From an uncultured Eubacteriales bacterium (lineage in GTDB: Bacteria > Bacillota > Clostridia > Christensenellales > Borkfalkiaceae), in the NCBI GenBank assembly GCA_900547645.1, contig URHP01000071.1:1-6972 (forward strand): a stretch of DNA of 6,972 bases. The letters are read 5' to 3'. The notes below the pieces were generated by a model, which was not told the DNA's origin, did no database searches, and saw nothing but the letters and a program-made list of their open reading frames with translations. Both the position numbers and the translations under genes were made by a program. Of this stretch, positions 1-6,972 are shown one piece after another; position 1 is the first letter of the stretch; each line of letters opens with the position of its first letter.

Positions 1-108
1 TTTTTCCAAAGGGAGCTGCGGCGGACAGTCGTCATGTTGTTTCGGTCTTTTGAAAGTTTCAATCGTGATTTCGATGTCGATAATTTGGGAAAGACGGATG
101 CCGGTTAA
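1..108 (+). CDS. possible 3' end of an upstream gene (unidentified, partial)
   Basis: A reading frame is open from the left edge to a TAA at 106-108 and gives 35 residues ending in DNLGKTDAG. I recognise no family. It would be the C-terminus of a gene running in the same direction as the RNA/slipin unit. No terminator-like hairpin follows the stop. The opposite strand of the same bases is also open in an in-phase frame (separate entry), and codon use does not decide between them, so at most one is real. Confidence 0.25.
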   Translation, partial: FFQRELRRTVVMLFRSFESFNRDFDVDNLGKTDAG

Positions 109-172
109 GGGGTATTTTTTCTCAAAAAAACGCGCTGTAGTGCGATGAGAGCGGAAAGAAAGGCTTGGTCAT
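1..172 (-). pseudogene. alternative: 5' part of a leftward gene with an apparent frameshift (unidentified)
   Basis: On the minus strand an ATG at 172-170 follows an AGGGA element by a few bases and encodes MTKPFFPLSSHYSAFF before a TGA at 124-122. The stop comes directly after a run of seven T (A7 on the plus strand, 124-130). Skipping one base of that run opens a frame of 41 codons that continues through the window edge and includes the sequence TGIRLSQIIDIEITIETF. It could be a real gene with an indel in a homopolymer, a sequencing error or a slippage site, or it could be only the shadow of the plus-strand frame at 1-108. I recognise no domain. Confidence 0.25.
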
Positions 173-205
173 ACGATTCCCTGTCCCATTTTTTGCCCAA
201 ATTGA

Positions 206-278
206 TTATTTTGAAAAATATCAAAATAAAAAATCCGATATATTTCGAAGATTATCAAAATAATGGTAGTTAAAATAA
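206..278. repeat. repeated TCAAAATAA half-sites, possible operator cluster
   Basis: A perfect inverted repeat has arms TTATTTTGA (206-214) and TCAAAATAA (221-229) separated by 6 nt. The right arm recurs as a direct copy at 255-263; the two share the 11-mer TATCAAAATAA at 219-229 and 253-263. A one-mismatch copy, TTAAAATAA, lies at 270-278. The cluster sits just upstream of the -35 box at 312, where an activator or repressor of the RNA/slipin promoter could bind. The surroundings are very AT-rich, so part of this could be chance. No regulator gene is in the window. Confidence 0.4.
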
Positions 279-311
279 GGGAAACCGATCGCTGTTTTTT
301 CCAAAAATACC

Positions 312-340
312 TTGAATCAGTAAAATTTTTATGATATAAT
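312..340 (+). promoter_or_regulatory. sigma-A type promoter for the tRNA-like RNA and slipin unit
   Basis: The -35 box TTGAAT (312-317) and a perfect -10 box TATAAT (335-340) are separated by 17 bp, and an A/T-rich block lies upstream. Transcription is expected to start near 347. The next coding start is 799, so the transcript begins with about 450 nt of non-coding sequence containing the tRNA-like element. No sigma-54 -24/-12 promoter, the type used by RtcR-controlled RNA-repair operons, was seen. Confidence 0.7.
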
Positions 341-346
341 GTATTT

Positions 347-441
347 TGGATGAACAAGGCGGGCATATTCTTTTTGCCGCGGTGCGCGCGGGTGTCCCGT
401 AGCGTATGCCGTTCGTCTGCGGATGAGAAGGAGCATCCGTC
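347..441 (+). other. 5' leader of the non-coding transcript, with a hairpin
   Basis: This segment lies between the predicted transcription start and the tRNA-like core. It is GC-rich and contains a short CGGG/CCCG hairpin around 388-398 and a clear 6-bp hairpin CGGATG/CATCCG (420-425 and 434-439) with an 8-nt loop, AGAAGGAG. That loop looks like a Shine-Dalgarno sequence, but no start codon follows at a suitable distance. Its AAGGA could instead pair with TCCTT at 450-454 as a pseudoknot, competing with the outer helix of the tRNA-like RNA. No coding sequence is evident. Confidence 0.35.
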
Positions 442-565
442 AAATAAAATCCTTCATTGATTTCGTGGGTTCGAATCCCACACGAGAGTGATCTCGTTGA
501 CCGGAGTGGTTAACGGAAATGCCTGTCAAGCATTTTATATCGTATGTCTGTAAGGACATATTTTT
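442..565 (+). ncRNA. circularly permuted tRNA-like RNA, candidate YrlA-type Y RNA
   Basis: The parts of a tRNA appear in rotated order. A T-arm at 465-481 has a 5-bp GTGGG/CCCAC stem and the canonical loop TTCGAAT. An acceptor-like 6-bp stem, ACGAGA/TCTCGT (482-487, 492-497), is closed by GTGA, a GNRA tetraloop, instead of ending in CCA. A 3-nt linker (T498 fits U8) leads to a D-arm at 501-516, with stem CCG/CGG and loop GAGTGGTTAA carrying A14, R15, GG and A21 equivalents. The anticodon arm at 518-534 pairs AATGC with GCATT around CTGTCAA, matching U33, GUC (Asp) and A37. The natural 5' and 3' ends would leave from the variable-loop position. The flanks can pair: 450-454 with 552-556, 455-457 with 544-546, 458-461 with 539-542. 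A TATGTC/GACATA hairpin (543-560) followed by TTTTT could be its terminator. Bacterial YrlA Y RNAs are known tRNA mimics, and a slipin gene follows. No clear GNCGAA-type Ro60-binding motif was found on this strand, so the family assignment is inference while the structure is directly visible. Confidence 0.6.
543..565 (+). terminator. weak intrinsic terminator-like hairpin ending the tRNA-like RNA
   Basis: TATGTC (543-548) pairs perfectly with GACATA (555-560) around a 6-nt loop and is followed by five T (561-565). The stem is AU-rich, so termination would probably be partial. That would give a free short RNA plus read-through into slipin. The hairpin is mutually exclusive with the long-range pairing of 552-556 to 450-454. 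Confidence 0.35.
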
Positions 566-798
566 CCATTGTATGGATCAATCTCTCGCTTCGGCGTCCG
601 TGCGGCGTCTGTCTTCCGACAGATAGCCGAAATGGAGTATCGTGCCTTGCGCTTGCGGGGATACCGCGTTGTTGGCGACGCAAACCAAATGTTAAGCATT
701 CCGTTTGCGAAGGAACTCGCTCAACTGCAGGCCCGTCGTGCCTCATCGGGCGTCTGTCGGTGATTCCGGGGTTTCCCGTTATTTTAGGAGCAATGGTT
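566..798 (+). promoter_or_regulatory. highly structured untranslated leader of the slipin gene
   Basis: No convincing gene is present; the frame open upstream of 799 lacks a ribosome site at its ATG (544). Hairpins seen are: CGC-TTCG-GCG (587-596), alternative to TTCGGC/GCCGAA (590-595, 626-631) enclosing TCTGTC-TTCC-GACAGA (608-623); GTATC/GATAC (637-641, 660-664); GCGT/ACGC (666-669, 678-681), competing with CGCAAAC/GTTTGCG (679-685, 703-709), which contains AATG/CATT (688-691, 697-700); GCCCG/CGGGC (731-735, 747-751); and CGGG/CCCG (767-770, 775-778) followed by TTATTTT. The 10-mer GGCGTCTGTC occurs at both 604-613 and 749-758, so GACAGA at 618-623 has two possible partners. The Shine-Dalgarno AGGAG is at 786-790. 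This could be a second small RNA or a regulatory leader. Confidence 0.45.
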
Positions 799-1920
799 AT
801 GCAGGTTATTATTCAGGAAAATCAGAAGGGACTGCTTGTCGTGAACGGAAAATTTTCCCGTTTGCTTGGTGCGGGGCGTTACCGCGCCTTTGGAACGCGT
901 GTGATCGAAGCGATCGGGTTTAGTCCGTATGCTGTTTGTCCCGGGAAAACAGTGCCTGTTTCCGTTCTTGAAAGGAATAATGACTTTCGGGAGCAGACCG
1001 TGTGCATCGACGTACATGACGGCGAATACGTTATGCATTTTGCAGACGGCGTATTTTTGGAGTTACTGGTCACCGCGGGACGCTATTTTTTCTGGAAAGA
1101 CGTCTGTAATCATGAATTTCGCACAATAGACGTTTCTTCGCCCGAAGTTGCCGAATCATTTCCGACGGTTTATTTTGCGAAACTTGCGCCCGCACTTTAC
1201 AGTGTTGTTGAAGTACGGGAGCGGGAGAGGGCGGCGCTCTATTTCGACCGCAGATTCGTTCGGTTTCTTGAACCCGGCAAATATTACTTTTGGAAGAATG
1301 GCGTTACCGTCTCGACGGTCTCCTATCCGTCCTGTCTGGTACAGAAGGAGATTGTCGGGCAGGAGATCCTCACGGCAGACAAGGTTACTTTGCGGATCAA
1401 CTGCATCTGTGACTATGCGATCGTCGATTTTCAGCGGATCGCAGAAGAAGTGGATGACTATGATCGGCAATTGCATACCGCAGTGCAGCTTGCTCTGCGA
1501 GAGTATGTCGGGAAGTACCGTATTGACGAGATTCTGGAAAATAAAGACGGACTGACCGATTATCTTACAAACGTATTGATCGGAAAAGGAAAAGAGCTGT
1601 TTTTGGATATCCGCTGCGTGTCCGTGCGCGATATCATTCTGCCGGGAGAGATCCGCGAAATCATGAATACGGTGCTGATCGCAGAAAAGCGCGCGCAGGC
1701 AAATGTGATCGCCCGTCGCGAAGAAGTTGCGTCCACGCGTTCCCTTCTCAATACGGCGCGGTTAATGGATGAAAACGAGACGCTGTATAAGCTCAAGGAA
1801 TGGGAGTATGTGGAACGCATTTGCGAAAAGGTGGAAAGCATTCATGTGAGCGGCGGGGATTTTTCTGCGCAACTTGCGGAGTTGCTTGCCGGAAAATTGC
1901 CGGAAAAAAAGAAAAAGTGA
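799..1920 (+). CDS. slipin / SPFH (band-7, prohibitin-homology) family protein
   Basis: This encodes a 373-residue protein. ATG 799 is chosen because AGGAG (786-790) stands 8 nt before it; ATG 793 is too close. Residues 9-32 contain QKGLLVVNGKF followed by LLGAGRY, the typical bacterial slipin start. The L-x-x-G-[RK]-Y pattern recurs at about 94-99 (GRYFFW) and 160-165 (GKYYFW), suggesting repeated beta hairpins before the SPFH core (about 170-285; VTLRINCICDYAI, LREYVGKYRIDEIL). A helical, charged C-terminal part (about 285-350; EKRAQANVIARREEVASTRS) probably forms a coiled coil for oligomerisation, and the chain ends in KKKK. There is no N-terminal membrane helix, unlike eukaryotic stomatins, so it may be soluble or peripheral. 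SPFH proteins form ring-like scaffolds, and such slipins are found beside RtcB/Ro60 RNA-repair genes (family knowledge). It follows the tRNA-like RNA and ends in its own terminator. The family is confident; the cellular role is inference. Confidence 0.85.
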   Translation: MQVIIQENQKGLLVVNGKFSRLLGAGRYRAFGTRVIEAIGFSPYAVCPGKTVPVSVLERNNDFREQTVCIDVHDGEYVMHFADGVFLELLVTAGRYFFWKDVCNHEFRTIDVSSPEVAESFPTVYFAKLAPALYSVVEVRERERAALYFDRRFVRFLEPGKYYFWKNGVTVSTVSYPSCLVQKEIVGQEILTADKVTLRINCICDYAIVDFQRIAEEVDDYDRQLHTAVQLALREYVGKYRIDEILENKDGLTDYLTNVLIGKGKELFLDIRCVSVRDIILPGEIREIMNTVLIAEKRAQANVIARREEVASTRSLLNTARLMDENETLYKLKEWEYVERICEKVESIHVSGGDFSAQLAELLAGKLPEKKKK

Positions 1921-1930
1921 AGCATACGGG

Positions 1931-1957
1931 AAAAGCGGGGCATTTGCCCCGCTTTTT
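1931..1957 (+). terminator. strong intrinsic terminator of the slipin unit
   Basis: AAAAGCGGGGC (1931-1941) pairs perfectly with GCCCCGCTTTT (1946-1956) around the loop ATTT, and the U-tract is completed by T1957. It starts 10 nt after the slipin stop. Because of the A-rich start and U-rich end it would also work leftward. It separates slipin from the following membrane-protein gene. Confidence 0.9.
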
Positions 1958-1984
1958 GCGTGAAAAAGGGGGATATTGCACACA

Positions 1985-1996
1985 ATGCCGGTATGA
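1985..1996 (+). other. possible three-codon leader peptide overlapping the next start
   Basis: ATG CCG GTA TGA reads from 1985 to 1996, and its stop overlaps the next gene's ATG (1993) as ATGA. The only good Shine-Dalgarno here, the G-run at 1968-1972, is spaced for this short frame (12 nt) rather than for ATG 1993 (20 nt). Translational coupling by termination-reinitiation is possible but could be coincidence. Confidence 0.25.
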
Positions 1997-2802
1997 GACC
2001 GGCGGTCAAAAAACAGAATGCATTTGTACGGGCGTGGCACAAGGGGCGCGCGGCTTACCGCGTTTTTTCTTTCCATCGGGCAACGACGATCGCCGGAACG
2101 CTCGTGTTTTTTCTGATCATGTCGCTTGTGCCGTTTTTGTTCTGGCTGACGCTCTTGTTCGGCGAAATGCATACCGTGCTTGACAGGATCCTTGAACTTG
2201 AATTGTTCGGATGGGCGCGGGATCTGCTGTCCTTTCTCAGAAACAACGCGCAGGGGGCGACGGCGGGCGCGAGTATCTTTCTGATCGCCACGACGCTCTG
2301 GTCGAGTTCCGCGTTCTTCTATCATCTCAGACGCAGCGGGGAGATCATCTATGCGGAGCCGCGCCCGCGCAAGGGGTGGAAGGTGCGCCTTGCCGCCATC
2401 GGCATGACGTTTGCCGTGTTGCTGTTCTTTGCTGCGGCCGGCGGTCTGCTGTTGGGCGTGAGCCTTGTCACGCGTCCGCTGTCGCCGTGGATCGCCTATC
2501 CCGCCGTATATGCGGCGGTCCTGATCCTTGGTTTTTTTGCCGCGTGGCTCTTGAATGTGTACGTATGCCCGCATGCGCATTGCGCCAAAAAAGTCGCGCT
2601 GGGCAGCTTTTTGACGGCGCTTGCCTGGCTTGCCGCGTCGGGTGCGTTTTCCGTCTATCTCATGTTCGGGAACAAAGAAAAACTGTACGGCGCGCTTGCA
2701 TTGGTTATCGTGTTTCTGCTGTGGCTGTATTGGCTGATGATCTGCTTTGTCGCGGGCGTTATCTTCAACAAGCACAGAGCAAAGCCGCCGCGCTCCGTTT
2801 GA
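1993..2802 (+). CDS. YihY/BrkB (UPF0761) family inner-membrane protein
   Basis: This encodes a 269-residue polytopic protein from ATG 1993. An in-frame GTG at 1960 would add 11 residues, but it abuts the slipin terminator and has no ribosome site. About six membrane helices are visible (roughly 31-55, 88-110, 131-153, 163-187, 200-220 and 229-255). A basic N-terminal helix is followed by a segment containing LVPFLFWLTLLF. The C-terminal half carries the family pattern of a G-x-x-x-x-x-x-A-W-L-x-A-S-G helix, then F-x-x-Y, a short loop with K-L-Y-G-A-L-A, and a tryptophan/leucine-rich last helix ending VIFN. Family members are widespread; the name virulence factor BrkB and an RNase BN label are historical, and the biochemical role is not settled. 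It may have its own unrecognised promoter or depend on read-through. It converges on the lipoprotein gene. Confidence 0.8.
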   Translation: MRPAVKKQNAFVRAWHKGRAAYRVFSFHRATTIAGTLVFFLIMSLVPFLFWLTLLFGEMHTVLDRILELELFGWARDLLSFLRNNAQGATAGASIFLIATTLWSSSAFFYHLRRSGEIIYAEPRPRKGWKVRLAAIGMTFAVLLFFAAAGGLLLGVSLVTRPLSPWIAYPAVYAAVLILGFFAAWLLNVYVCPHAHCAKKVALGSFLTALAWLAASGAFSVYLMFGNKEKLYGALALVIVFLLWLYWLMICFVAGVIFNKHRAKPPRSV

Positions 2803-2823
2803 GGGGGTCGCGGCGGCTGTTTC
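2783..2823 (+). terminator. terminator hairpin overlapping the end of the yihY-type gene
   Basis: AGCCGCCGCG (2783-2792) pairs perfectly with CGCGGCGGCT (2809-2818). The loop contains the last codons and the TGA stop (2800-2802), and GTTTCC follows. The U-tract is short on either strand, so termination is probably moderate. It sits between convergent genes and may serve both. Confidence 0.6.
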
Positions 2824-2833
2824 CTGATCTGTT

Positions 2834-3292
2834 TCAAGCGCCGAATTCAGGGTGAGCCGTCAGAAAATCTTCGTTGAAATATTTGCTGCCGGCATTCGTC
2901 ATGATCATATTTTCGGAAATTATGAGAACCACAGACCAATCGCTGTCAGAAAAACCGGAAGCAGGGGCTTCATTGTTGTCGCCTGCTTCGACATGATCGA
3001 AGACGCACAGAATCGTTTCCCTGTCTTTGTCGATGACAGAATAGTCGAAATAGATCGTATACTCGCTTGGGTAATTCATGCTGCCATCCCAATATTGACC
3101 GCGCGTGTAGCGGATTCCCGTACCGTCTTTGTGGAACAGGTAATAATCGCTGTCTTCGAGCGCAGTGTCGGTCTCGACTGCGTAATATCTTTTCTCCATG
3201 GCAAGACTGCCCGCCGGAGAACATGCCGCAAGTCCCGCAATGATCGCCAAGGACATGACGGCTGTGCCCAAAAGTGCAAAAATTTTCTTCAT
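2834..3292 (-). CDS. small secreted lipoprotein of unknown function
   Basis: This encodes a 152-residue protein with a lipoprotein signal: MKK, a hydrophobic stretch to about residue 20, and the lipobox LAAC with Cys24 as the predicted lipidated residue after signal peptidase II cleavage. The mature part (about 128 residues) is acidic and rich in Tyr and Asp, with stretches such as DSDYYLFHKDGTGIRYTRG and YTIYFDYSVIDKDRETILC that suggest a small all-beta fold in which a tyrosine-rich strand is followed by a K-D-G-T-G turn. I recognise no named family. A good Shine-Dalgarno (GGGGG, about 3302-3306 on the plus strand) precedes the ATG, and a promoter lies just upstream, so it is probably monocistronic. 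It is expected on the outer face of the cytoplasmic membrane. The 477-nt frame on the opposite strand (2852-3328) is judged a shadow. Confidence 0.8.
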   Translation of the reverse strand: MKKIFALLGTAVMSLAIIAGLAACSPAGSLAMEKRYYAVETDTALEDSDYYLFHKDGTGIRYTRGQYWDGSMNYPSEYTIYFDYSVIDKDRETILCVFDHVEAGDNNEAPASGFSDSDWSVVLIISENMIMTNAGSKYFNEDFLTAHPEFGA

Positions 3293-3316
3293 CGTGCCAT
3301 TTCCCCCTTTGGGTGC

Positions 3317-3346
3317 ATTATATCATGACCGAGGCTCGCGTGACAA
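3317..3346 (-). promoter_or_regulatory. sigma-A promoter of the lipoprotein gene
   Basis: Read on the minus strand, TTGTCA (3346-3341) and TATAAT (3322-3317) are separated by 18 bp. Transcription would start about 10-12 nt before the ribosome site. The rest of the gap up to the tmcAL stop (about 3350-3466) contains nothing I can assign beyond a CGGAA/TTCCG hairpin that lacks a proper U-tract for the leftward direction. Confidence 0.65.
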
Positions 3347-3466
3347 TGGCTATGGGTTATTTTTAACGGTTGACAGGCTTCAGGATGCCGCCGCCCTTCG
3401 GTTGGTCGCTTAAGTCTGATTCTTTTTGTTGCGGAACTGCCGGCGGTATTCCGAGGGGGGAGCTGC

Positions 3467-4651
3467 TTATATGAATGCCGTTTCGAATTCGTTTGTGTGT
3501 TTTCCGGCAAGCACGTTGTACAGATCGTTGGCGCGCACGTCCGTTTCGAAGCAAGTGAGGGCGTCTTTTTTGAGAAGGGAATAGTCGCCCTTTCTGACGA
3601 TCAGGGGGAATTTCCCCGCGCCGAGGGCGGCGAGCGTCTCTTCCGCGCCCTCCTTTTTCAGAGCGAGCGTGCGGATATAGAGGGGCTCCTGCGCCCATTC
3701 CAGCGTGTTTTCCCGCGTCAGTCCCAGAAAGTTCTGCATGAGAACGCGGCGCACGCGCGCGGCGGTGTATCGTTTGGAGACCACTTTTTCCAGCATCGCA
3801 TGAAAATCCGGATTGGTGCGCGCCATGGAACGGATGCGGTTTTCCAGCCCTTCGGCGCAGTCGGGGCAGGCTGCCACGGCTTCGGCAGGGGCGGACAGCA
3901 GCGCGCACAGGGCGGCGGTCTCGTAGGGAACGGGCGCGTAGTCGAGCGCGGCGCGGTACACTGTCCCCGGCAGGTTCCCCTTCAGCGCCTTTTTTGCCTT
4001 GCGCGAGCCGTCCGCCATGGCGCCGCGCAGCGCCGTCGCCGAGGAAAAGTCCTTGAAGAGCGCCGTATCGGCGTATCCGCCGCCCACGCGGGGAACGGGG
4101 ATGGGTTCGATCGCGGCGTTTTCCGAAAGGACGGCGCGGCAGTATTCCGTTCCCAGAATGTTGTTGGGAGAGGTGAGCAGCGCTTCGTCCACGTCCGCGC
4201 CCGATGCAAGCAGCGCAGCGTTGCGCGCGCGGATATAGGAAGTGCCGTCCTTCATGTTTTCCCGGAGCGCCGCTTTGAACTGCTTGCTCTCCGAAAGCGT
4301 TGCGCGCGCCGTCTTCAGAAAGTCTTCCTTTGTGCCGCTCTCGCAGCCGAAGGCGAGCGCCGTCACGGAGGGAACGGAGGACAGGATATGCACCGCGCCG
4401 CGTGCAAACAGTTCGGCAGGGGCGACGGCAAAGGCGGCGGGCAGTTCGATCACGGCGTCCGCGCCGCCTTCGACCGCGTGCCGTGCGCGCTCGTATTTGT
4501 GGAAGACGGCAGGCTCCCCGCGCTGGGTGAAATTCCCGCTCATGATGCAGAGCACTTTGTCGCAGCCGGAAAGCCTGCGCGCTTCGGCAAGCTGGTACCT
4601 GTGTCCGTTGTGAAAGGGGTTATATTCGCAAATTACCGCACAAAATTTCAT
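3467..4651 (-). CDS. tmcAL: tRNA(Met) cytidine acetate ligase (TmcAL/YlbM family)
   Basis: This 394-residue protein is close to the usual family length of about 400. The N-terminus carries the nucleotidyltransferase signature CEYNPFHNGH (8-17) with the HxGH motif at His14-His17, then MSGNFTQRGEPA (37-48), ADAVIELP (64-71) and later SPNNILGTEY (161-170), all hallmarks of YlbM/TmcAL. Known function: it activates acetate with ATP to acetyl-adenylate and transfers the acetyl group to the wobble cytidine (C34) of elongator tRNA-Met, giving ac4C, in the cytoplasm. A weak Shine-Dalgarno (AAGGGA) precedes the ATG. The gene is divergent from pta-ackA, whose product is its co-substrate acetate. The long frame on the opposite strand (3497-4708) results from the strong GC bias at codon third positions. 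Confidence 0.93.
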   Translation of the reverse strand: MKFCAVICEYNPFHNGHRYQLAEARRLSGCDKVLCIMSGNFTQRGEPAVFHKYERARHAVEGGADAVIELPAAFAVAPAELFARGAVHILSSVPSVTALAFGCESGTKEDFLKTARATLSESKQFKAALRENMKDGTSYIRARNAALLASGADVDEALLTSPNNILGTEYCRAVLSENAAIEPIPVPRVGGGYADTALFKDFSSATALRGAMADGSRKAKKALKGNLPGTVYRAALDYAPVPYETAALCALLSAPAEAVAACPDCAEGLENRIRSMARTNPDFHAMLEKVVSKRYTAARVRRVLMQNFLGLTRENTLEWAQEPLYIRTLALKKEGAEETLAALGAGKFPLIVRKGDYSLLKKDALTCFETDVRANDLYNVLAGKHTNEFETAFI

Positions 4652-4669
4652 GTTTTTTCCCTTGTGTCC

Positions 4670-4698
4670 TTTACAATCATTGCAAAAAGGTGTATAAT
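4670..4698 (+). promoter_or_regulatory. sigma-A promoter of pta-ackA
   Basis: TTTACA (4670-4675) and TATAAT (4693-4698) have 17-bp spacing, and the start is predicted near 4705, giving a leader of about 72 nt. The -10 box forms part of the left arm of the inverted repeat at 4690-4733. Confidence 0.7.
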
Positions 4699-4733
4699 GG
4701 CAACGTGAGCGGACGTTTGTAATTATTATACAC
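4690..4733. repeat. inverted repeat framing two facing -10 boxes
   Basis: GTGTATAAT (4690-4698) and ATTATACAC (4725-4733) are perfect 9-nt inverted copies 26 nt apart. The left arm contains the pta -10 box and the right arm contains a TATAAT reading leftward for tmcAL. It could be an operator for a dimeric regulator or simply two promoters sharing the same -10 context. Confidence 0.5.
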
Positions 4734-4753
4734 GAAAACGCAAAAAAAGAAAA
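4725..4753 (-). promoter_or_regulatory. probable tmcAL promoter with a weak -35
   Basis: On the minus strand TATAAT lies at 4730-4725. The -35 position (about 4753-4748) reads TTTTCT, a poor match in a T-rich tract. Predicted transcription starts near 4718 and runs left through the pta promoter. An alternative with TTACAA and CATTAT, 17 bp apart, lies slightly further left. Confidence 0.4.
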
Positions 4754-4776
4754 GGGGTTATAGGAGAAAAAAGATC

Positions 4777-5826
4777 ATGGCGAATTTCATGAGACAGTTG
4801 AAACAGCTCGGAAGAAAGATCGTCGAAACGGGTTCCTTCGCGGAAGACCTCAAGAAGCGTGCGGGCGAAAAGCCGCGCACCATCGTGCTGTGCGAGGGCG
4901 AGGACAAGCGCGTCGTCGAAGCGGCGCAGCGCTGCGTGGAAGAGGGCGTTGCCAAGATCGTTCTGCTCGGCAAAGAGGCGGAGATCAGGGCGGCGAATCC
5001 CGAAGCGGAGCTGGAAGGGATCACGATCGTCAATCCCGCCACCTCTCCCAAGCTGGAGGAATATGCCGATCTTTTGTATGAACTGCGCAAGGCAAAGGGC
5101 ATGACGCAGGAACAGGCGATGGAGCAGGCGAAGGACGCCACCTTCTTCGGCGCGCTCATGCTCAAGGCGGGCGATGCGGACGGGCTTGTTTCGGGTGCCT
5201 GCCATTCGACGGCGAACACGCTGCGTCCCGGGCTTCAGATCATCAAGACGGCGCCCGGCGTGAGCGCGGTTTCTAGCTTCAATCTGATGATCGCGCCTGC
5301 GGGCGGAAACAAGTATATGGACGGCGACGTGCTCGTGTTTGCGGACTGCGGGCTCAATCCCACCTATACGGCGGAAGGGCTTGCGGACTGCGCCATTGCC
5401 ACGGCAAAGAGCGCAAAGGAGATCGCGGGCATCGAACCCTGCGTCGCCATGCTGTCCTTTTCGACCAAGGGAAGCGCCAAGCACGACAACGTGACGCTCG
5501 TGCAGGAAGCGACGCGCATCGCCAAGGAAAAGGCGCCCGAGCTGGCGCTCGACGGCGAACTGCAGTTTGATGCGGCGCTCGTGCCCGAAGTCGCGGCGCT
5601 CAAGGCGCCCGGTTCCGCCGTTGCGGGGCATGCGAACGTATTCATCTTCCCCGATCTGCAGTCGGGCAACATCGGCTATAAGATCGCCGAGCGTCTGGGC
5701 GGGTTCCAGGCGGTCGGTCCCATCTGCCAGGGCTTTGCAAAGCCTCTCAACGACCTTTCGCGCGGCTGCAAGGCGTCCGATATCGTGCTTGCCGTTGCGA
5801 TCACGGCGCTTCAGGTCAAGGACTGA
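4777..5826 (+). CDS. pta: phosphate acetyltransferase (phosphotransacetylase)
   Basis: This encodes 349 residues, the short single-domain form (the E. coli type is about twice as long with extra N-terminal domains). It converts acetyl-CoA and phosphate to acetyl phosphate and CoA, and the reverse, in the cytoplasm. Recognisable segments are ADGLVSGACHSTANTLRPG (about 134-152), VFADCGLNPTYTAEGLAD, SFSTKGSAKHD, AGHANVFIFPDLQSGNIGYK and the C-terminal KPLNDLSRG. Ser328, Arg329 and Asp335 keep the spacing of the catalytic Ser309-Arg310-Asp316 of the Methanosarcina thermophila enzyme. TAGGAG (4761-4766) is a strong ribosome site for ATG 4777. ackA follows after 27 nt with no terminator between, so the two form an operon. 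The long frame on the minus strand (4726-5631) is a shadow. Confidence 0.96.
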   Translation: MANFMRQLKQLGRKIVETGSFAEDLKKRAGEKPRTIVLCEGEDKRVVEAAQRCVEEGVAKIVLLGKEAEIRAANPEAELEGITIVNPATSPKLEEYADLLYELRKAKGMTQEQAMEQAKDATFFGALMLKAGDADGLVSGACHSTANTLRPGLQIIKTAPGVSAVSSFNLMIAPAGGNKYMDGDVLVFADCGLNPTYTAEGLADCAIATAKSAKEIAGIEPCVAMLSFSTKGSAKHDNVTLVQEATRIAKEKAPELALDGELQFDAALVPEVAALKAPGSAVAGHANVFIFPDLQSGNIGYKIAERLGGFQAVGPICQGFAKPLNDLSRGCKASDIVLAVAITALQVKD

Positions 5827-5853
5827 TTGTCACATCACACAAAGGGGTACGGA

Positions 5854-6972
5854 ATGAAAATACTTGTCATCAACGCGGGGAGCTCCTCGCTCAAATATCA
5901 GCTCATCAACATCGAGACGGAGGAAGTCCTTGCAAAGGGCAACGTCGAGCGCATCGGCATCAAGGGCGGCGCGCTCACCCATAAGGCGGGCGGAAAGACC
6001 TTCGTCATCGAAAAAGAGATCAAGGACCACACCGAAGCTATTCAGCTCGTTTTAAGCGAACTGATCGACGGGGAAGCGGGCGTCATCCGCTCGATGGACG
6101 AGATCGACGCCGTCGGACACCGCGTCGTCGCCTCCGGCGAGGCGTTCAAGAAGACCACGCTCGTCACCGACGAAGTGATGAAGACGATGGACGAGATCGC
6201 CGAACTTGCGCCGCTGCACAACCCTGCGGCGATCCTCGGCGTCAACGCCTGCCGCGCCGTCATGCCCGATAAAAAGATGGCGCTCGTCTTCGATACGTCC
6301 TTCCATGCCACCATGCCCGACTATGCGTACCTGTACGCGATCGATTACGACGATTACAAGACCTATCAGGTCAGAAAGTACGGCGCGCACGGCACTTCGC
6401 ATAAGTTCGTCTCGCAGGCGGCGGCGGAGTACCTGAACAGAGATCCCAAGGACCTGAAGATCGTCACCTGCCATCTGGGCAACGGTTCCTCCATCTCCGC
6501 GGTCAAGGGCGGGAAGTGCATCGATACGTCCATGGGCTTTACGCCGCTCGCGGGCGTTCCCATGGGGACGCGCAGCGGCGATATTGACGCGGCGGCGGTG
6601 GAGTTCCTGTGCAAGAAAAAGGGCATGGATATTCACGAGGCGCTCGTCTATCTCAACAAAAAGTGCGGCATGCTCGGCGTTTCGGGCGTTTCGTCCGACT
6701 ATCGCGACCTGACCGCCGCGGCAAAGGAGGGCAACTATCGCGCGCAGCTCGCGCTCAACATGTTCTCCTATGCGTGCAAGAAGTACATCGGCGCATACAT
6801 GGCGGCGCTCGGCGGGCTGGACGTCGTCGTGTTTACGGCGGGCGTCGGCGAAAATACGCCCCATATCCGCGCTTCCATACTTTCCGACATGCAGGCGTTC
6901 GGCATCGAGATCGACGAGGCAAAGAACGAATACAAAAACGACGGCGCCGTTCACGAGATCTCCAAGGACGGC
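5854..6972 (+). CDS. ackA: acetate kinase (3' end cut by window edge)
   Basis: 373 codons are present and the frame is still open at the right edge; the family is usually about 395-400 residues, so about 25 are missing. It transfers phosphate between acetyl phosphate and ADP, yielding acetate and ATP. Active-site residues are visible one position offset from the Methanosarcina thermophila enzyme: Asn7 in INAGSSSLKY, Arg90 in GHRVV, Asp147 in FDTSFH, His179 in YGAHGTSH, Arg240 in GTRSGD. HLGNGSS and GVGEN (330-334) mark the nucleotide-binding part of the ASKHA fold. AAAGGGG (5841-5847) is the ribosome site. It is the second gene of the pta-ackA operon and completes substrate-level ATP formation from acetyl-CoA, the standard fermentative route. 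The opposite-strand frames (6052-6954 and others) are shadows. Confidence 0.96.
   Translation, partial: MKILVINAGSSSLKYQLINIETEEVLAKGNVERIGIKGGALTHKAGGKTFVIEKEIKDHTEAIQLVLSELIDGEAGVIRSMDEIDAVGHRVVASGEAFKKTTLVTDEVMKTMDEIAELAPLHNPAAILGVNACRAVMPDKKMALVFDTSFHATMPDYAYLYAIDYDDYKTYQVRKYGAHGTSHKFVSQAAAEYLNRDPKDLKIVTCHLGNGSSISAVKGGKCIDTSMGFTPLAGVPMGTRSGDIDAAAVEFLCKKKGMDIHEALVYLNKKCGMLGVSGVSSDYRDLTAAAKEGNYRAQLALNMFSYACKKYIGAYMAALGGLDVVVFTAGVGENTPHIRASILSDMQAFGIEIDEAKNEYKNDGAVHEISKDG

Follow-up and report, generated by a model that had tools for sequence, protein, structure and literature searches.

What is a tRNA-like structure with rearranged arms doing in front of a slipin gene? The question is raised by a 6,972-nucleotide stretch of DNA from an uncultured Eubacteriales bacterium (contig URHP01000071.1, positions 1 to 6,972 of the forward strand; hereafter the window), in which a slipin (SPFH/Band_7) gene lies on the plus strand at 799-1920, starting with ATG at 799 or 793 (Pfam Band_7 71.5 bits, cut-off 23.6). 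An earlier note, made from the letters of this stretch, had proposed that a tRNA mimic in circularly permuted order lies at 465-534. We assign a probability of roughly 55% to the following reading: a conserved structured element precedes slipin, with positions 465-534 as its permuted tRNA-like domain, and this element is likely a noncoding RNA partner of slipin in a damaged-tRNA response.

RNAs of this kind reportedly have a forerunner, as Burroughs and Aravind are said to have described in 2016 SPFH/Band-7 modules with a novel tRNA-like molecule, proposed to be the RNA cognate to an SPFH scaffold in systems for RNA repair. The slipin-linked RNA analyzed here would thus be a variant of a kind already predicted. 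Among the matches listed by a literature search (titles and abstract starts, in a library lacking most subscription papers), no slipin- or SPFH-linked tRNA-like RNA was found.

The permuted tRNA-like domain

Read directly on the plus strand, 465-534 presents a T arm, an acceptor hairpin, a D arm, and an anticodon-like arm, which is a rotated tRNA order. The T arm (465-481; GTGGG-TTCGAAT-CCCAC) carries the loop TTCGAAT, and the acceptor hairpin (482-497; ACGAGA-GTGA-TCTCGT) consists of six perfect pairs joined by GTGA, as the earlier note had stated. A TGA linker (498-500) with a U8-like T at 498 leads into the D arm (501-516; CCG-GAGTGGTTAA-CGG), which has a 3-bp stem and a GG within its loop; the anticodon-like arm (518-534; AATGC-CTGTCAA-GCATT) closes the domain with the loop CTGTCAA. 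ARAGORN detected no tRNA or transfer-messenger RNA (tmRNA) in the window, and a canonical gene for either was thus rejected. Permuted tRNA genes of algae and archaea, and permuted tmRNA, share the rotated order of the tRNA halves; those transcripts, however, are processed into working tRNA or tmRNA, whereas here the acceptor stem is closed by a loop and no CCA end is present.

Relatives of the locus were collected through the slipin. A search returned 5,936 relatives among 7,998 scored candidates, and a genome scan with seven aligned slipins confirmed at least 540 relatives, the best 80 of which were kept as loci. Most are labeled as Clostridia or families thereof, with one labeled Lentisphaerae (L080) and another Fusobacteriaceae (L066). 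Together with the window these make 81 loci, and 78 upstream regions were aligned; left out were L003 and L078, whose contigs end just before slipin, and L040, which has no element.

The order T arm, acceptor, D arm, and third hairpin was parsed in 74 of the 78 upstream regions (exceptions L013, L023, L036, and L054), with a few parses being doubtful, such as that of L045. An acceptor hairpin free of mismatches, 5 bp or longer and at most 2 nucleotides (nt) from the T arm, is present in 63 of these 74 regions, compared with 15% of 1,480 dinucleotide shuffles, and its stems are diverse (49 distinct). The T loop begins with TTC in all 74, at a place where the parser required TC-A, and GG occurs in the D loop of 70, a feature that the parser rewarded. 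The parser picks the best-scoring hairpins and misreads some arms (the D arm of the window and the third loop of L002 among them), so the counts are approximate and 7-nt loops are undercounted. Within these limits, the acceptor and third loops vary. The GNRA acceptor loop on which the earlier note had remarked exists in the window but is not a family feature (11 of 74). The same holds for the 7-nt anticodon loop: the window has one, but the third loop varies in relatives, measuring 7 nt in 10 of the 74 parses and 4 nt in 38 (TTCG in 11, GAAA in 10). A hand-made T-acceptor-D descriptor placed the element upstream of slipin, on the slipin strand, in most loci; it is not specific, giving 126 matches in the 81 records, several of them on the other strand or within genes.

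Covariation was assessed in 43 sequences chosen from the 74. The T stem is fully paired in all of them, 84.3% of the T-acceptor-D cells pair, and 104 cells carry double-sided changes, compared with 35.7 (standard deviation (SD) 5.5) in shuffles and 11-40 in slid alignments. This is not a blind test, because poorly parsed loci were omitted and the acceptor of the window is out of register in the alignment. Compensatory changes, whose absence from homologous loci the earlier note had named as grounds for abandoning its proposal, are present, and with the acceptor hairpins exceeding shuffles the idea of a permuted tRNA mimic is borne out. In some Clostridia loci (e.g., L015, L025, and L031), a second T-arm-like hairpin lies upstream of the main one, reading TGGGGTTCAACTCCCC in L015 and L025; it may be the remnant of a second unit.

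A larger predicted RNA and its distribution

The domain is part of something bigger. In the 78-locus alignment, conserved blocks flank it on both sides and conserved structure spans approximately 380 to 753, so the extent of 442-565 first suggested for the RNA was too small. Mapping of the conserved columns onto the window yields a slipin-linked RNA with a predicted extent of about 400 nt (348-755, plus strand), both ends being estimates. In isolation, 348-800 folds more stably than its 100 shuffles do (z -3.10). On the 5' side, a conserved hairpin block, GGTGCGC...GCGTATGCC (approximately 380-410, plus strand), contains the covarying columns 100/117, 101/116, 104/112, and 106/110. On the 3' side lies a conserved domain containing GGATACCG (628-752, plus strand; 71.8 bits with model R1), in which 28 of 31 pairs show double-sided changes among 58 sequences chosen from the 78. 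Here 89.0% of cells pair, and 487 carry double-sided changes, a number that falls to 153 (SD 11) on shuffling and to 104-146 when the alignment is slid.

Model R1, built from 58 of the 81 loci, matches upstream of slipin and on the slipin strand in 77 of them, once each at E <= 0.001. The four misses are the two loci with truncated contigs, L040, from which the RNA is absent, and L077, in which the 3' domain is partly missing from the alignment. Under strict filters, R1 matched 5 of 291 drawn Clostridia genomes, three of them new. The slipin alignment matched eight of the same 291, and all eight of those slipin loci have an R1 match, three of which are weak (36-45 bits). The distribution is patchy: among 41 Lentisphaerae relatives only one genome (G024) has a match, a count that includes the seed, and at family rank only the seed does (1 of 4).

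In a search of the window against Rfam, the lone match at E <= 1 was to a plastid family, in antisense and with 22.7 bits where the cut-off is 68. The covarying RNA of about 400 nt is absent from the Rfam release 15 descriptions, and the Rfam tRNA model touches only one copy (30.0 bits, cut-off 29, over L072:5714-5775). A large covarying RNA outside Rfam thus precedes SPFH genes in Clostridia and in one Lentisphaerae genome.

Two signals in the window bear on the ends of the RNA. A promoter-like TTGAAT-17-TATAAT, in which a TG precedes the -10-type hexamer TATAAT (312-340, plus strand), has 10 of 12 consensus matches and would place a start near 348; it is a consensus likeness only, since positions 1-2200 hold three such sites and shuffles 2.2 (SD 1.5). 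An AU-rich hairpin followed by a T run (542-565, plus strand) reads as terminator-like in the window copy only and was not listed by the scan that gave the promoter-like site. A terminator after the tRNA domain was rejected as a general feature, as there is no T run at that place in L001, L002, or L072.

More distant relatives were detected by a plasmid tblastn search, which yielded nine relatives of slipin; eight, from Escherichia, Citrobacter, Burkholderia, and Photobacterium, share 30-33% identity. In Citrobacter, rtcR adjoins slipin and RlaP, and the gap holds a T arm, an acceptor hairpin, and GG. In Escherichia coli, a region of about 300 nt with a T arm precedes the slipin and RlaP genes (L095:7680-7997; L102 and L103); it occurs in 1,624 of 5,426 complete genomes and the slipin in 1,623 of 5,426, totals that were counted separately. 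A similar unannotated element thus precedes slipin-RlaP genes in both Citrobacter and E. coli, in the latter in roughly 30% of the complete genomes. In the two E. coli chromosomes examined no RNA is annotated there, and sigma-54-like sequences were read there by eye. Beside one E. coli slipin-RlaP pair, in a single strain, lies a zeta-toxin-type gene (L102:6482-7405).

The arms are arranged differently from one group to the next. Burkholderia copies combine a T-arm unit with one tRNA-like unit in canonical order that has a tiny third loop, and the Photobacterium locus has two tandem canonical-order tRNA-like units just before slipin (L099:4662-4803; Rfam tRNA 54.1 and 46.4 bits). ARAGORN, run on 16 related loci, found nothing in 12 and called genes only in the Burkholderia and Photobacterium copies. 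Two distant Clostridia (L092 and L094) apparently carry two consecutive rotated units before slipin (reverse strand, approximately 2650-3000), the second with a 7-nt anticodon-like loop. We infer that the rotated domain can derive from a tandem tRNA pair through loss of the outer halves, although the permuted form may instead have given rise to the tandem tRNAs. The RNA seems to stay with slipin despite changed neighbors and regulators and, apparently, even a changed arm order.

Slipin, a possible link to RNA repair, and competing explanations

In Clostridia, the relatives are frequently linked with RtcB and WYL-type regulators. By tblastn, 48 of the 68 loci that extend 1.5 kb or more downstream encode the RNA ligase RtcB on that side, and 59 of the 70 that extend 2.2 kb or more upstream encode WYL-type regulators on theirs; RlaP matched in 5 of 60, and clustering indicated two tandem regulators in many loci. 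Pfam confirmed RtcB and RlaP, and WYL in one of the two regulators tried. In 22 genomes chosen mostly for having no adjacent RtcB, 10 have RtcB somewhere. Connections between SPFH proteins, Y RNAs, and repair genes are described elsewhere: an SPFH gene in the rtc locus of Pseudomonas aeruginosa (PMC13086221), and the Salmonella Y RNA within the rtc RNA-repair operon (PMC8394870; PMC7790460). RtcR, RtcB, or RlaP partner genes recall the RtcR-controlled rtcBA operon; unlike that operon, Clostridia loci have WYL-type regulators instead, and the window shows none of these partners.

If the RNA is a partner of slipin, its transcript would start near 348 and would be separate from the slipin message, either from the outset or through cleavage. 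The elbow formed by its T loop and D loop may dock a tRNA-binding repair or decay factor, while slipin could assemble into a cage holding the RNA and thereby bring repair enzymes to cleaved tRNAs. The T loop, acceptor, and D arm, which make up the tRNA elbow, are the most constant of the tRNA-like parts and the anticodon-like loop is variable; a role in docking a tRNA-binding factor would therefore be likelier than decoding or acting as an anticodon decoy. Given the recurrence of RtcB, RlaP, and RtcR as partners, the likeliest use would be that a slipin assembly senses or handles cleaved tRNAs with it. This would connect SPFH assemblies with RNA repair and with tRNA mimicry, and the different arrangements would offer a natural series for studying how tRNA order becomes permuted.

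A bolder version of this reading, which we regard as doubtful, is a bacterial vault: a soluble cage of slipin resembling major vault protein and equipped with a large RNA of its own. The permuted tRNA elbow of that RNA would join cleaved tRNAs with the ligase RtcB or the transferase RlaP. The permuted domain would come from a tandem tRNA pair minus its outer halves, and the tandem, half, permuted, and doubled permuted forms in different bacteria would be living intermediates. Vaults contain RNA and a TROVE protein. In the AlphaFold2 model of slipin, three repeats of five strands each are combined with an SPFH domain and a long helix. This predicted plan is like that of major vault protein in more than the SPFH domain, and the two align over repeats and SPFH domain with weak geometry. 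Any likeness to the vault particle and its RNA would lie in this predicted plan and in an RNA linked to the gene, whereas no Pfam vault model matched the five slipins scanned.

Several observations weigh against a slipin partner RNA, or against parts of that picture. The minimum-energy fold of the window copy replaces the D arm with a competing 7-bp hairpin (approximately 496-514), although the fold of 430-575 retains the T arm, four acceptor pairs, and the anticodon-like arm (z -1.96; 6 of 200 shuffles as stable); in the relative L001, the competing hairpin carries a mismatch and the D stem is intact. In two of five T-acceptor-D measures the real alignment does not stand above the shuffles, of which 132 and 113 of 500 attain its values. 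The window contains no RtcB (by tblastn, and none in five Pfam-scanned proteins) and no WYL gene, and there is no RtcB match in its nearest genomes (G001-G003, metagenome-assembled and of unknown completeness) or in Robinsoniella (G012). With filters off, R1 has no match upstream of slipin in four proteobacterial loci (L095, L096, L099, and L101), the nearest being at chance level (L101:4517-4566, 9.3 bits), so homology with these elements rests on motifs read by eye. Vault structures matched the slipin model with a template modeling score below 0.5, behind stomatin and prohibitin, and five slipins had no match to a Pfam vault repeat or shoulder family at E <= 10, in a search whose HMMER filters drop most weak matches. 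Lastly, L040 (5300-6000) is a natural deletion that retains the promoter region, an extra open reading frame (ORF), and slipin without the RNA, which is thus dispensable there.

The main rival, which we consider possible but distinctly less probable, is a cis-acting leader: the operon would have a tRNA-like fold in its 5' untranslated region, which would sense the state of tRNA, or a tRNA-binding protein, and set the translation of slipin or read-through into it. It draws on the spacing: in the 37 loci measured, the 3' domain ends 35-81 nt before slipin (median 51), and a T run of at least 5 lies between them in only 2, so RNA and slipin are likely co-transcribed. That arrangement is not universal, however, for the RNA ends more than 150 nt from slipin in 15 of 78 loci, with an unknown ORF intervening in 10 of these. 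Moreover, the L040 operon persists without the RNA, and dedicated regulators (WYL-type or RtcR) already adjoin the operon. An unknown protein of about 200 amino acids, found in 12 of 75 loci by tblastn, is encoded between the RNA and slipin in ten Clostridia loci (e.g., L042:5312-5974 and L046:5344-5979); of two copies tested, one has a sub-cut-off match to Tctex-1, the only match.

A decoy occupying anticodon nucleases is improbable. Such a role has been suggested for the tRNA-like domain of YrlA (in PMC7790460), and the linkage to RtcB and the 7-nt anticodon-like loop of the window and some relatives would suit it; the scarcity of 7-nt third loops across the parses, even allowing for their undercounting, and the frequent TTCG and GAAA tetraloops do not.

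Still less credible is a divergent Y RNA tethering a Ro60 protein. YrlA (RF02553, PDB 6CU1) is described as a circular permutation of tRNA (PMC11472068) that binds the Ro60-like Rsr and PNPase and, in some bacteria, is located within an operon for RNA repair (PMC8394870; PMC7790460), and both RNAs have the same permuted topology. The earlier note had recommended a search with Y RNA models, and in it the scores fall well short. RF02553 has no match in the window at E <= 1 and reaches its gathering score of 69 bits in none of 28 genomes. Three copies score 33.0 (L022), 25.8 (L072), and 16.4 bits (L020), as placed by coordinate arithmetic, but the L022 match spans model positions 29-81 only, which is relevant to the Ro60-binding stem of the 5' and 3' ends, and such weak matches are background, since 13 of 14 controls also match at E <= 10. 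No Ro60/TROVE was found in the 24 genomes searched from relatives, against a match in 1 of 14 controls. YrlA membership was rejected on these scores and the missing TROVE; the slipin-linked RNA further differs in being embedded in a larger RNA next to slipin. The YrlA model also matches apparent tandem tRNA genes in the genomes G001-G036, because neighboring tRNAs form a rotated unit, and these are a likely source of false positives.

Least probable of all is that a tandem tRNA pair has decayed here, or that the resemblance is functionless and due to chance: tandem tRNA genes also produce the order T-acceptor-acceptor-D and the tRNA model does reach 30.0 bits in L072, but the acceptor and D arm covary (43 sequences), as does the 3' domain (58 sequences), which refutes it for the family, and the placement before slipin is constant, leaving decay of a copy in a single genome as a possibility.

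Other features of the window

A viral origin was rejected, as a scan of viral_contigs with the slipin alignment returned 49 pattern matches and no slipin relative among them. A blastn search of 300-1000 of the window against plasmids gave no match. On the minus strand, 2837-3292 encodes a lipoprotein-like protein of 152 amino acids with no Pfam match. In the Pfam scan of five proteins, slipin is followed by one of BrkB type, an unassigned one on the opposite strand, then a HIGH nucleotidyltransferase and a phosphotransacetylase, and the last ORF of the window is presumably an acetate kinase.
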